Shown: positions 25,675-29,945 of the stretch, in pieces
How the letters are laid out: each line of letters begins with the position of its first letter
Numbering within the stretch: position 1 is the stretch's first letter
Assembly: GCF_900087055.1 (NCBI RefSeq)
Contig: NZ_LT575468.1
Coordinates: forward strand, 62,001 to 126,000
DNA: 64,000 bases
Source of the DNA: Plesiomonas shigelloides
Lineage (GTDB): Bacteria > Pseudomonadota > Gammaproteobacteria > Enterobacterales > CAMTGL01
Direction of reading: 5' to 3'
The notes under the pieces: model-generated
Seen by the model: only the letters and a program-made list of their open reading frames with translations
Database searches by the model: none
What the model was told of the DNA's origin: nothing
Program-made: the position numbers and the translations under genes

Positions 25675-27114
25675 ATGCAGCCAGATCCGCAGCAAAAATC
25701 GACCATTCCGGTCAAGAATGTCAACACGGATATTAACACCTCGGACAGTCCTTCTGGGTTGAAGTATTTTGACCCGAGTCAGCGCCTGTATGTTCGCGCC
25801 GTCAGCGGAACTTATCAGCGTCTACGTCGTTACGGTGGTTGGGTGTTGATGCTGCTGTTTTTCCTGCTGCCGTGGTTACCTTACCAAGGGCGACAAGCGA
25901 TTTTGCTGGATGTGGAGCAGCAACAGTTTCACTTTTTTGCCACCACCTTGTTTCCACAAGATCTCACCTTGCTGGCTTGGTTACTGATCATTGCCGCTTT
26001 TGCCCTGTTTTTTATTACCACCTTTTTAGGCCGCGTCTGGTGCGGGTATTTGTGCCCGCAAACGGTGTGGACGTTCATTTTTATCTGGTTTGAAGAGCGT
26101 TTTGAAGGCACTGCCAACCAGCGTCGAGCATTGGATAAAGCCCCGCGTAGCGCCAATAAAATTCTGCGTAAAACCGCCACGCATCTGTGCTGGCTGGGGT
26201 TTTCCCTGCTGACGGCATTGGCGTTTGTCAGCTACTTTGTGCCAGCGAAAGCACTGTACAGCGAATTTTTCCGCGCCGCCTCTGGCGGGTGGACGGTCTT
26301 TTGGGTGCTGTTTTTTACCGCCTGCACTTACGCCAATGCCGGTTGGATGCGTTCTATCATGTGTACGCACATGTGCCCGTACGCCCGTTTTCAATCAGCG
26401 ATGTTCGATCGCGATACCTTTATCGTGGCCTACGACAGCGCGCGCGGAGAGCCGCGTGGGCCGCGGCGGCGCAAAGTTGATCCGGCGAGCTTAGGCCTAG
26501 GCGCCTGTATCGATTGCGATCTGTGCGTGCAGGTATGCCCGACCGGCATCGATATTCGCCAAGGCTTGCAGTATGAGTGCATCAACTGCGGGGCGTGTAT
26601 CGATGCCTGCGATCAAACCATGCAGCAGATGGGCTATGCACCGGGACTAATCAGCTATACCACCGAGCACAAGCTGGCCGGCCACAAAACCCGCTTACTG
26701 CGACCGAAACTGCTGGGCTATGGGTTGGTACTGGTGGTGATGATCGGGCTCTTTAGTGCCAATTTACTGCGCTTACAACCGGCCAATTTAGAGGTGCTGC
26801 GCGATCGTAATCAGCTGTATCGCATTAACAACGAAGGCGCGATTGAAAATACCTTTATCCTCAAGCTGCAAAATAAAACCCAGCAACCGGTGACGTACCA
26901 GTTAGCGGTGCAAGGGCTGCCGACTGATGTGCAGTGGTTGGGGCCACAGAAAGTGCAAGTGGCGCCTGGTGAGGTGGATACCATTCCGCTGACGTTGGCC
27001 GTACCTGAAGGCGCGGCGTTATCTGCGGTGCAGCCGATCCGCTTTAGTGCTACTGCCGTCAACGGCAACGGCGCCGCAGTGAGTGCGGAGAGTCGCTTTT
27101 TTAGCGAGCGTTAA
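25675..27114 (+). CDS. ccoG: Cytochrome cbb3 oxidase accessory protein CcoG (RdxA/FixG family)
   Basis: CcoG is a membrane-bound ferredoxin-like protein that helps deliver copper to cbb3-type oxidase by reducing Cu(II). The 479-residue protein has about five membrane helices, paired cysteines in CGYLCPQ and MCTHMCPYAR, two [4Fe-4S] motifs (CIDCDLCVQVCP and CINCGACIDACD) and a C-terminal Ig-like FixG domain (about residues 370-475). The family usually sits beside ccoNOPQ, which is not seen here; the gene stands alone between yihD and srkA, a place where E. coli has no such gene. Confidence 0.93.
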   Translation: MQPDPQQKSTIPVKNVNTDINTSDSPSGLKYFDPSQRLYVRAVSGTYQRLRRYGGWVLMLLFFLLPWLPYQGRQAILLDVEQQQFHFFATTLFPQDLTLLAWLLIIAAFALFFITTFLGRVWCGYLCPQTVWTFIFIWFEERFEGTANQRRALDKAPRSANKILRKTATHLCWLGFSLLTALAFVSYFVPAKALYSEFFRAASGGWTVFWVLFFTACTYANAGWMRSIMCTHMCPYARFQSAMFDRDTFIVAYDSARGEPRGPRRRKVDPASLGLGACIDCDLCVQVCPTGIDIRQGLQYECINCGACIDACDQTMQQMGYAPGLISYTTEHKLAGHKTRLLRPKLLGYGLVLVVMIGLFSANLLRLQPANLEVLRDRNQLYRINNEGAIENTFILKLQNKTQQPVTYQLAVQGLPTDVQWLGPQKVQVAPGEVDTIPLTLAVPEGAALSAVQPIRFSATAVNGNGAAVSAESRFFSER

Positions 27115-27279: not shown

Positions 27280-28272
27280 ATGACTGAGCACAGCAGCGCA
27301 TTTGCTTTTCAAACACTCTCTCCCGATCTGATTATGGATGCCCTAGAGGTGGTCGGGATCCGTGTCGATTCCGGTTTGTTGGCTCTTAACAGCTATGAAA
27401 ACCGCGTGTACCAGTTACTGGATGAAGACCGGCGCCGGTACGTGGTGAAATTTTATCGTCCACAGCGCTGGAGTGCGGCGCAGATCCGCGAAGAGCATGC
27501 GTTTGCCTGTGAGCTGGCCGCCGCCGAGATCCCGGTGGTAGCGCCACTGACCCTGCAAGGCGATACCCTGCATCAGCACGAGGGTTTTTGGTTTGCGGTA
27601 TTCCCGAGTGTCGGCGGACGCCAGTATGAAGTGGACAATCTGGAGCAGCTGGAGTGGGTGGGGCGCTTTATGGGCCGTCTGCACCAGCAGGGGCAAAAGC
27701 AGCTGTTTAACGCCCGGCCGACGCTGGGGCTGGATGAATACCTGTATCAGCCGCGCGATTTTTTACAACAATCCGATTTTATTCCGGCCGAATTACGTCC
27801 GGTGTTCTTTGCCGATCTGAATATGCTGATCAACGAAATCGAGCAGCACTGGTATAGCGATTGGCAGCCACTGCGCCTGCACGGTGATTGTCATCCGGGC
27901 AATATTTTGTGGCGCGATGGCCCGCTGTTTGTCGATTTGGATGACGCGCGCAATGGCCCAGCGGTGCAGGATTTATGGATGTTGCTTAACGGTGAGCGGC
28001 ATGAGCGTTTGATGCAGCTGGATATTCTGCTGGAAAGTTATGGCGAATTTTGTGATTTTACTGCGCGGGAATTGCAACTGATCGAGCCTTTGCGTGGTCT
28101 GAGGATGGTGCATTACATGGCGTGGCTGGCTCGGCGCTGGGAAGACCCAGCATTTCCGCGCAGCTTTCCATGGTTTGCTGAGCCGCGTTATTGGGAGCAG
28201 CAGATCTTGGCCTGTAAAGAGCAGATCGCCGCGTTGCGCGAACCGCCATTGCAATTGATGCCAATGTATTAA
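27280..28272 (+). CDS. srkA: Stress response kinase A (YihE)
   Basis: SrkA is a cytoplasmic Ser/Thr protein kinase with the fold of aminoglycoside/choline kinases; in E. coli it protects against stress-induced cell death and belongs to the Cpx regulon. The 330-residue protein shows the nucleotide-binding N-lobe (ENRVYQLLDEDRRRYVVKFYRP), the catalytic loop LHGDCHPGNILW and the metal-binding FVDLDDARNGP. E. coli SrkA has 328 residues. It lies 124 bp upstream of the first dsbA, and the two are likely cotranscribed as in E. coli. Confidence 0.94.
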   Translation: MTEHSSAFAFQTLSPDLIMDALEVVGIRVDSGLLALNSYENRVYQLLDEDRRRYVVKFYRPQRWSAAQIREEHAFACELAAAEIPVVAPLTLQGDTLHQHEGFWFAVFPSVGGRQYEVDNLEQLEWVGRFMGRLHQQGQKQLFNARPTLGLDEYLYQPRDFLQQSDFIPAELRPVFFADLNMLINEIEQHWYSDWQPLRLHGDCHPGNILWRDGPLFVDLDDARNGPAVQDLWMLLNGERHERLMQLDILLESYGEFCDFTARELQLIEPLRGLRMVHYMAWLARRWEDPAFPRSFPWFAEPRYWEQQILACKEQIAALREPPLQLMPMY

Positions 28273-28396
28273 GGCGCGTTTCTTGCGCGCTTCAACCGGC
28301 ATCGTTTGGGTTTAGAGAGAGGCGTGGGTGGCAACCCGTGTGGGTCTGCCTAGCACCATCAGCGTGTTTTTATTGTTTATTTTAAAGGATGTGGAA

Positions 28397-29020
28397 ATGA
28401 AGAAGATTTGGCTGACGTTAGCGGGATTGTTGCTGGCGACTCAAGTGGCTGCCGCCGAGTTTACTGAGGGTAAACAGTATGTGGCTTTGGAGCGTCCGGC
28501 TACTGCCAGACCGGAAGCCATTGAGTTTTTCTCCTTCTACTGCCCAGCGTGTTTTGCGTTTGAAAATACGTTCCATATTCCGCAGATGATCCGCTCTGAA
28601 ATGCCGACAGATGGCCAGTTCAAGCAATACCACGTTGATTTTCTGGGCCCATTGGGTAAAGACCTGAGCCAAGCGTGGGCGGTGGCCAATGTGTTGGGTG
28701 TGGAGCAGAAAGTAGCACCGGTGCTGTTTGAAGGGATCCAGAAAACCCGTAGCATCAAAACGCCAGCCGATATCCGCGCCGCGTTTGAAAAAATCGGTGT
28801 GAAGGGTGATGAGTATGATGCCGCGCTGAGCAGCTTTATGGTGAGCTCGTTTGTCGCGCAGCAAGCTAAAGCAGCGCAGGACTTCCAAGTGGAAGGCGTG
28901 CCATCTATCTACATTAACGGCAAATTTCGCATCGAACCTCGCGGTTTTGACGCGAAAAACAATGATCAATTTGTGCAGCAATACGGCGCGTTAGTTAAAT
29001 TCCTGCTGCAACAAAAGTAA
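28397..29020 (+). CDS. dsbA: Periplasmic thiol:disulfide oxidoreductase DsbA, paralog with CPAC active site
   Basis: DsbA introduces disulfide bonds into proteins in the periplasm and is reoxidised by DsbB. This 207-residue paralog keeps a signal peptide almost the same as E. coli DsbA (MKKIWLTLAGLLLA, cleavage near A19/A20) and a thioredoxin fold with helical insert. Its active site is C49-P-A-C52 instead of CPHC; the cis-proline loop is EGVPSIYING. ATG 28397 is chosen because AAGGATG precedes it and the signal peptide begins there. A second dsbA follows 172 bp downstream. By position after srkA this copy is the E. coli dsbA counterpart, but the loss of the active-site histidine should change its redox potential. 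Confidence 0.92.
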   Translation: MKKIWLTLAGLLLATQVAAAEFTEGKQYVALERPATARPEAIEFFSFYCPACFAFENTFHIPQMIRSEMPTDGQFKQYHVDFLGPLGKDLSQAWAVANVLGVEQKVAPVLFEGIQKTRSIKTPADIRAAFEKIGVKGDEYDAALSSFMVSSFVAQQAKAAQDFQVEGVPSIYINGKFRIEPRGFDAKNNDQFVQQYGALVKFLLQQK

Positions 29021-29064
29021 GTTTGAGCGTCTGGTTGCCGTGGTAACCGAGCACAATCGTAAAG

Positions 29065-29095
29065 CGCGTCCAGCATTCGTGGTGGGCGCGTTTTT
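29065..29095 (+). terminator. Probable terminator between the two dsbA genes
   Basis: CGCGTCC (29065-29071) pairs with GGGCGCG (29084-29090), 7 bp including one G-T pair, and is followed by TTTTT. It suggests the second dsbA has its own promoter in the about 95 bp that follow. Confidence 0.65.
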
Positions 29096-29192
29096 CTTTA
29101 CATAACTTTTCTTATCTCGCCCTTGCTGGCGCCAGTCCGCCCCCGTAAAGTACTTTCCGTGATTCATATCCTTTGTTGTGGGAGTGTAAATA

Positions 29193-29840
29193 ATGAAGAT
29201 GAAAGTAGGGATGCTGGTGGCAACGTTATTATTGGCGGCTCCCGCATTCAGCCCAGCACTGCAGGCCGCGGAATTCACCGATGGCAAGCAGTACACCACC
29301 TTTGATAAACCGGCCACCGCCAAGCCACAAGCACTAGAGTTTTTCTCGTTTTATTGTCCGCATTGTTACGCGTTTGAGTATGACTATGGCCTGCCGGCCA
29401 AGATCGAATCAGCGCTGCCGAAAGACGGTGAGTTTATCCAATATCACGTCGATTTTTTAGGGCCGTTAGGGCCGGATTTGACCCGTGCGTGGGCGGTGGC
29501 GATGGCGCTAGGGGTGGAAAAGCAGATCCAACCGGTGCTGTTTAACGGGATCCAGAAAACCCGCACCATCAACAGCGTGGCTGATATCCGCAATGCCTTT
29601 TTGCAAATCGGGGTAAGTGCACAAGAGTATGACTCGGCGCTGAACAGTTTCATGGTCAACGCGCTGGTCGCCAAGCAACAGCAAGCGGCGCAAGCCTATG
29701 AGCTGCGCGGTGTGCCGACCGTGATCATTGATGGTAAATACCAGATTAACATGGGCGGTTTGCCGGCGGATTCTACCGAGCAGTTTATCCAAAGCTATGA
29801 TGGCGTAGTGAAATTCCTGCTGCAACAGCCGCGCGCCTAA
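29193..29840 (+). CDS. dsbA: Periplasmic thiol:disulfide oxidoreductase DsbA, paralog with CPHC active site
   Basis: Second DsbA of a tandem pair, 215 residues, with a different and longer signal peptide (about 1-25, ending LQA-AE) and the canonical active site C55-P-H-C58. It has the cis-proline loop RGVPTVIIDG and the conserved QYHVDFLGPLG followed by AWAVAMALGVE. In the mature part it resembles E. coli DsbA more at the active site and cis-Pro loop than its neighbour does. GGGAG lies upstream of the ATG. The pair clearly arose by duplication in the DsbA family, but the sequences differ enough that it is not recent. Confidence 0.92.
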   Translation: MKMKVGMLVATLLLAAPAFSPALQAAEFTDGKQYTTFDKPATAKPQALEFFSFYCPHCYAFEYDYGLPAKIESALPKDGEFIQYHVDFLGPLGPDLTRAWAVAMALGVEKQIQPVLFNGIQKTRTINSVADIRNAFLQIGVSAQEYDSALNSFMVNALVAKQQQAAQAYELRGVPTVIIDGKYQINMGGLPADSTEQFIQSYDGVVKFLLQQPRA

Positions 29841-29912: not shown

Positions 29913-29945
29913 GAGGGTGAGATGCATGGTCTGTGTCTCACCCTC
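29913..29945. terminator. Possible terminator hairpin between dsbA and hdfR
   Basis: GAGGGTGAGA (29913-29922) pairs perfectly with TCTCACCCTC (29936-29945) around a 13-nt loop. It lies between converging genes and is probably a terminator, but only a GTTTT sequence follows on the plus strand. Confidence 0.45.

Follow-up and report, generated by a model that had tools for sequence, protein, structure and literature searches.

Tandem dsbA genes with CPAC and CPHC active sites downstream of srkA in Plesiomonas shigelloides

Plesiomonas shigelloides carries two complete DsbA precursor genes, dsbA1 and dsbA2 (copies 1 and 2), which lie head to tail downstream of srkA on the + strand of the 64-kb window (the whole stretch of DNA that was analysed). 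The first encodes a CPAC active site and the second a CPHC active site. The dipeptide between the two cysteines of DsbA is the textbook redox rheostat, and it has mostly been studied through made mutants. Our comparisons incline us towards a scenario in which the housekeeping dsbA gene behind srkA was duplicated in tandem on the Plesiomonas lineage, which would have produced two periplasmic thiol oxidases that are both recharged by the cell's single DsbB and share out their substrates. Copy 1 would have kept the srkA slot while swapping His32 for Ala, together with Y34F, R148E and changes at residues 159-164, and would most likely still be an oxidase, with altered kinetics and other preferred substrates. 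Copy 2 would have retained the standard CPHC centre. As a DsbA duplication the Plesiomonas pair is ordinary; its greater interest is that CPAC/CPHC splits have arisen at this locus several times separately, and this is one of them. Studies of Plesiomonas dsbA must treat two genes.

Two DsbA genes at the srkA locus

The genes and their active-site codons are located as follows, with the mature residues of both copies numbered as in E. coli DsbA.

27280..28272, + strand: homologue of srkA (stress response kinase A) encoding 330 aa, immediately 5' of the dsbA pair
28397..29020, + strand: dsbA1, a 207-aa DsbA precursor with C49-P-A-C52 (mature C30-P31-A32-C33)
28541..28552, + strand: CPAC active-site codons of dsbA1, TGC CCA GCG TGT
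29193..29840, + strand: dsbA2, a 215-aa DsbA precursor with C55-P-H-C58 (mature C30-P31-H32-C33)
29355..29366, + strand: CPHC active-site codons of dsbA2, TGT CCG CAT TGT

The two proteins are identical at 117 of 209 positions (56%) and their genes are separated by 172 bases. The ORF finder picks a GTG at 28328 as the start of dsbA1; the ATG at 28397 has AAAGGA before it and opens an E. coli-like signal peptide. The open reading frames and codons agree with the original prediction, which had described two complete head-to-tail precursors with these motifs at these coordinates, and had placed copy 1 in the srkA-dsbA slot with an E. coli-like signal peptide. A further gene (25675-27114, + strand), whose product is presumably a CcoG/RdxA-like ferredoxin, lies between a yihD-like ORF and srkA. 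The gene order here otherwise follows that of E. coli, mobB-mobA-yihD-srkA-dsbA.

Both copies score above the PF01323 cut-off of 25.6 bits (78.2 bits for copy 1 and 84.3 bits for copy 2). The NCBI DsbA equivalog model NF008198 covers residues 1-207 of the 207 residues of copy 1 with 292 bits (cut-off 279), and copy 2 falls slightly below that cut-off with 271.2 bits. The AlphaFold model of copy 1 (pLDDT 91.7) superposes on E. coli DsbA (4wet) with Z 29.0 and an rmsd of 1.5 Å over 186 residues and shows the same fold, a thioredoxin fold with the inserted helical domain; the model of copy 2 has a pLDDT of 90.9. The CXXC motif and the cis-proline loop (Val-cisPro) are found in both copies, and E24, E37, V150, cis-P151 and F174 are retained in both copies of both Plesiomonas genomes compared. 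The CPHC motif expected of class Ia, E. coli-type DsbAs is present in copy 2 and replaced by CPAC in copy 1. Judged by sequence and predicted fold, copy 1 is a DsbA, but one outside the standard CPHC type.

The P. shigelloides genome is a single 3.4-Mb contig with a completeness rating of 100%, and it contains two DsbA genes and one DsbB gene above Pfam cut-offs. The single PF02600 match over the cut-off has an E-value of 2.3e-45, and its frame contains CVMC and two further loop cysteines, which would be the working ones. The MAG that represents the second Plesiomonas genome yielded no DsbB match, but its completeness is only ~75%.

The intergenic region

Two terminator-like hairpins were found around dsbA2:

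29062..29093, + strand: terminator-like hairpin between dsbA1 and dsbA2, -20.7 kcal/mol, z -4.1, followed by TTTTTCTTT
29913..29945, + strand: terminator-like hairpin 3' of dsbA2, z -4.1

The hairpin between the genes was missed by a simple terminator scan, probably because its stem has an internal mismatch. Strong hairpins also occur in the dsbA1-dsbA2 gap of the second Plesiomonas genome, one of them followed by TTTTT. The presence of hairpins with T-runs between the genes in both genomes suggests that dsbA1 and dsbA2 are probably transcribed separately, in line with the terminator at about 29065 and the separate expression that had been proposed for this locus. No match to a sigma-70-type promoter was found in the dsbA1-dsbA2 gap of the window. 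CpxR-box-like sites show no excess across the 64 kb (43 matches against 39 expected); one such site with a single mismatch (29097-29111, - strand) lies within the gap.

Conservation in a second Plesiomonas genome

The array of srkA, a CPAC copy and a CPHC copy is present in both of the two Plesiomonas genomes compared. The MAG proteins are 77% (copy 1) and 71% (copy 2) identical to those of the window, and dN between the two genomes is 0.081 in srkA, compared with 0.146 in copy 1 and 0.227 in copy 2. For copy 1, pN is 0.133 against a pS of 0.746; the synonymous sites of dsbA are near saturation between these genomes, which makes omega imprecise. Relative-rate counts for copy 1 and copy 2 were alike against all eight outgroup rows tried, and so revealed no rate difference between the copies. 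These substitution counts indicate that both copies are under purifying selection and evolve at similar rates. No 20-codon block stood out strongly as a candidate for gene conversion between the copies (30-47 of 60 bases identical).

The CPAC motif is kept in copy 1 of the second genome, so its absence from other isolates, which would have counted against specialisation, was not seen in the one further genome compared. We rejected a sequencing or assembly error as the origin of CPAC because the identical array and motif recur in the second genome with a copy 1 that is 77% identical, and we rejected a pseudogene because the frames are intact and pN is far below pS. An error or a decaying copy is, on this evidence, extremely improbable.

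Phylogeny of CPAC and CPHC DsbAs

A DsbA phylogeny was reconstructed from 80 rows, 27 of them CPAC, in a sample picked for CPAC, and was run with and without the active-site columns. The four Plesiomonas proteins formed one clade inside the enteric DsbA group, with support of 99/91 when the active site was included and 98/90 when it was masked. The duplication is therefore older than the divergence of the two Plesiomonas genomes, and the enteric rows sampled do not share it. This supports the paralogy that an alignment and tree of Plesiomonas and its relatives had been proposed to examine. On this tree the His-to-Ala change of copy 1 predates the split of the two genomes.

Forcing all 27 CPAC rows to be monophyletic lowered the log-likelihood by 243 (p-AU 2.6e-53, active site masked), and a single ancient CPAC paralogue as the source of all CPAC DsbAs was therefore rejected. 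The masked 80-row tree requires at least seven changes between CPAC and other motifs, with the direction of change not inferred; this number is no rate, since the sample was chosen for CPAC, and several CPAC rows sit on long branches where their placement is unsure.

Residue changes accompanying Ala32

Copy 1 differs from copy 2 in both genomes at several positions near the active site. Its residues there are A32, F34, E148 (in the cis-Pro loop), F159, R160, E162 and R164; apart from H32, their counterparts in copy 2 are Y34, R148, Y159, Q160, N162 and G164. Residues 159-174 lie near the DsbB groove. Taken together, the copy-1 changes would fit an altered substrate surface. In E. coli DsbA the cis-Pro loop contacts substrate, and the same source describes position 148 as one that varies and that exerts its effect via the backbone (PMC13269488). 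Residue 148 also varies among relatives (14 R, 14 Q and 1 S in 29 rows), and this variability together with the backbone role suggests that R148E may matter little. At conserved columns, derived changes number eight in copy 1 and three in copy 2, a difference that is not significant (p = 0.23). E148 is not the common residue of the CPAC copies in Pseudoalteromonas, Rheinheimera and Neiella; F34 is common to the Rheinheimera and Neiella CPAC copies, and 56 of 57 Pseudoalteromonas rows have Asn there. The CPAC lineages therefore have no common set of accompanying changes.

The two copies could also be redundant: each would be a general oxidase recharged by DsbB, their substrates would overlap, and both would have been retained for dosage or to allow separate regulation, with Ala32 as a tolerated variant. 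Such redundancy is possible, though we doubt it. The similar rates of the two copies and the intergenic hairpins of both genomes, which point to separate control, would agree with it. However, two bases must change to turn His into Ala (CAY to GCN), and each copy has kept its own residue since before the two genomes split. His32 is moreover found in all 29 best-scoring enteric DsbA rows (L006-L034), although more diverged rows of the enteric group vary (CLHC, CSHC and CSYC, with CPSC in a second copy). Second DsbA paralogues with CPSC, CGPC and CAPC were also observed elsewhere in enteric genomes (L074, L075 and L076, in G337, G310 and G018).

Redox properties of CPAC DsbAs

The sole redox potential of a CPAC DsbA found in the literature searched is that of M. 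tuberculosis Rv2969c (MtbDsbA; Cys89-Pro90-Ala91-Cys92), which at -99 mV is more oxidising than E. coli DsbA (PMC3792642). According to the available text of that report, MtbDsbA has no insulin-reductase activity, does not couple to E. coli DsbB and does not restore E. coli motility (PMC3792642). Chlamydia trachomatis DsbA (CtDsbA), with CSAC, has a potential of -229 mV, a value for which its authors hold the uncharged dipeptide partly responsible (PMC5193440). The contrast between -99 mV for CPAC and -229 mV for CSAC implies that Ala at the second position does not alone fix the potential. Since MtbDsbA is distant and without coupling to E. coli DsbB, its value is a caution and not a prediction for copy 1. 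No paper giving the redox potential of DsbA H32A, H32S or H32L was found in the literature searched, which left out most subscription papers.

Copy 1 could instead be a weak oxidant, a reductase or isomerase-like, with copy 2 as the general oxidase. The CtDsbA potential and its partial attribution to an uncharged dipeptide would agree with this, as would the shift of E. coli DsbA from -122 to -220 mV on changing CPHC to CPPC (Bessette 2001, as cited in the available text of PMC3792642), and an acidic side chain at position 148, close to the thiolate, would be expected to reduce oxidising power if it has any effect. MtbDsbA argues the other way, though as a distant guide, and so does copy 1 itself: it occupies the housekeeping slot, the DsbA model spans its entire length, and a Pfam scan gave only PF01323 and PF13462, with no DsbC/DsbG-type N-terminal dimerisation domain.

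Five genomes (G005, G252, G085, G271 and G361) carry one DsbB each and only CPAC DsbAs in a DsbA profile search at E 1e-10 or better, which suggests that a CPAC DsbA may be able to act as the main oxidase. Their existence also counts against a weakly oxidising copy 1, which we consider unlikely, and, like the strong oxidant MtbDsbA, it would also be compatible with redundant copies. The original prediction had read CPAC as a change of role. As altered substrate choice this idea survives, in that the surface changes would fit it; as a weaker oxidant or an isomerase-like protein it is not supported, in view of MtbDsbA (-99 mV, no insulin reduction) and the five CPAC-only genomes with DsbB. The accompanying idea that copy 2 alone keeps the general oxidase function is not supported either: it is copy 1 that occupies the position next to srkA, it has the higher NF008198 score (292 against 271.2 bits) and it is not evolving faster. 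Two DsbB-fed oxidases that divide their substrates would remain our preferred account of the Plesiomonas pair.

Several of the loci with CPAC DsbAs deserve separate description. In genus g50, the loci L216, L217, L218 and L236 (G361, G271, G085, G252) belong to genomes with one or two DsbAs each, all FSFWCPAC, and one DsbB. G005, a 96% complete MAG, has DsbB and a single srkA-linked CPAC DsbA (L071:3497-4129, - strand), and a search at E 1e-10 gave no further DsbA. An Idiomarina MAG of unstated completeness has one CPAC DsbA and a DsbB, and Vibrio sp. PID17_43 has a lone CPAC copy at srkA, with CPHC and CGHC relatives elsewhere in its genome.

Recurrence of CPAC-containing pairs

Recurrence was surveyed with the pattern (F/Y)F-x-F-(Y/F)-CPAC, x being mostly Ser, in one genome per species; the pattern is blind to FSFWCPAC. 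It matched 98 stretches, which come from one exact pattern and so give no CPAC frequency. A DsbA-like ORF was present in 88 of them and two such ORFs in 71, and CPAC stood beside CPHC or CGHC in 66, with srkA in view upstream in 63 of these 66 pairs. The pairs comprise 57 from Pseudoalteromonas, in which CPAC is second, and seven from Rheinheimera, one from Neiella and one from the Plesiomonas MAG, in which CPAC is first; the Pseudoalteromonas species are too closely related to count as independent, and two of the 57 stretches (L135, L179) come from a single MAG (HyVt-346). The open frames abut in the Pseudoalteromonas and Rheinheimera pairs (gaps of -16 to +35). The other stretches included ten without a DsbA, 12 with a lone CPAC frame and no srkA in view, four with a lone CPAC behind srkA, four with the first copy cut at the locus end, one without a readable motif (L162) and one CPAC/CPAC (L151). 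An additional locus of the Rheinheimera clade (L164), initially scored as a lone CPAC at the locus edge, is a CPAC then CGHC pair and stands outside the 66.

When 394 genomes of the order were scanned with a shorter CPAC pattern, 40 of them contained it, at 44 places in all, and nine of the 31 places examined lie in DsbA-like frames. Among 55 genomes chosen for a census, 17 adjacent DsbA pairs were counted, leaving aside partial matches at the contig ends of G091. Five are CPHC/CPAC (three in a Pseudoalteromonas-like genus, g85, and two in family f14), and the rest are CPAC/CGHC (1), CPAC/CPAC (3), CPHC/CGHC (2), CPHC/CPSC (1) and CPHC/CPHC (5). Tandem dsbA genes are often found without a CPAC outcome, and CPAC is one common outcome among several dipeptide combinations. 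Since other bacteria have acquired CPAC independently, the motif seems to be functional rather than defective.

Further variants were seen alongside these pairs. Both tandem copies of Pseudoalteromonas luteoviolacea HI1 (L151:2739-4019, + strand) are CPAC, so that the histidine was apparently lost there on yet another separate occasion. In genus g15 (family f15), four of the five genomes sampled (L211, L212, L213, L072) have srkA-linked tandem DsbAs that are both CPHC, a duplication without histidine loss. In family f27, DsbA-like frames of ~500 aa (L105:1764-3296, + strand, in G295; L104:2192-3655, + strand, in G340) carry SPSC or SPSS where CXXC would stand and end in a long, repetitive tail rich in Pro, Glu and Ala, with the frame in L104 running to the contig end; these paralogues are apparently dead or altered.

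We tentatively suggest a wider pattern, a parallel two-oxidase periplasm, in which the srkA-dsbA gene would have been duplicated in place in several lineages, with one daughter changing His32 to Ala and substrates or redox windows being divided. If true, these natural replicates would allow a direct in vivo test of the role of the DsbA dipeptide. Side-by-side pairs that differ at His32 and are under selection in several unrelated lineages would form a natural experiment on redox potential, speed or substrate choice. No account of CPAC/CPHC DsbA pairs was found in the literature searched, which did not reach most subscription papers, and no paper on the Plesiomonas gene was found among the titles and abstract openings searched. 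Madonna et al. 2006 announces 'a novel disulfide oxidoreductase enzyme' from P. haloplanktis TAC125 (known here from its reference in PMC1766363), and this P. haloplanktis DsbA paper may already describe one such pair.

Comparison with known DsbA systems

The Plesiomonas copies resemble E. coli DsbA and the close enteric DsbAs (class Ia) in signal peptide, fold and the residues E24, E37, V150, cis-P151 and F174. The neighbouring srkA gene is likewise shared with E. coli. Copy 1 differs from E. coli DsbA by A32, F34 and E148, and both copies have Q58 for K58 and one residue fewer in loop 1.

MtbDsbA shares the CPAC active site with copy 1 (PMC3792642), but it is distant, has a second disulfide (PMC5193440) and Thr before the cis-Pro, and recognises VKOR peptides, as far as the available text of these reports goes. 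CtDsbA has Ala at the second dipeptide position, as copy 1 does, but lacks the Pro and is of class II type, with its potential of -229 mV, according to the text available (PMC5193440).

The closest parallels in gene arrangement come from other tandem pairs. The Pseudoalteromonas tandem is srkA-linked, with one CPHC or CGHC copy and one CPAC copy, as in Plesiomonas; it differs in that CPAC is the second gene, the frames abut and the proteins are distant in the tree. The Rheinheimera and Neiella tandems share with Plesiomonas the order of srkA, CPAC and then CPHC or CGHC, but form clades separate from it.
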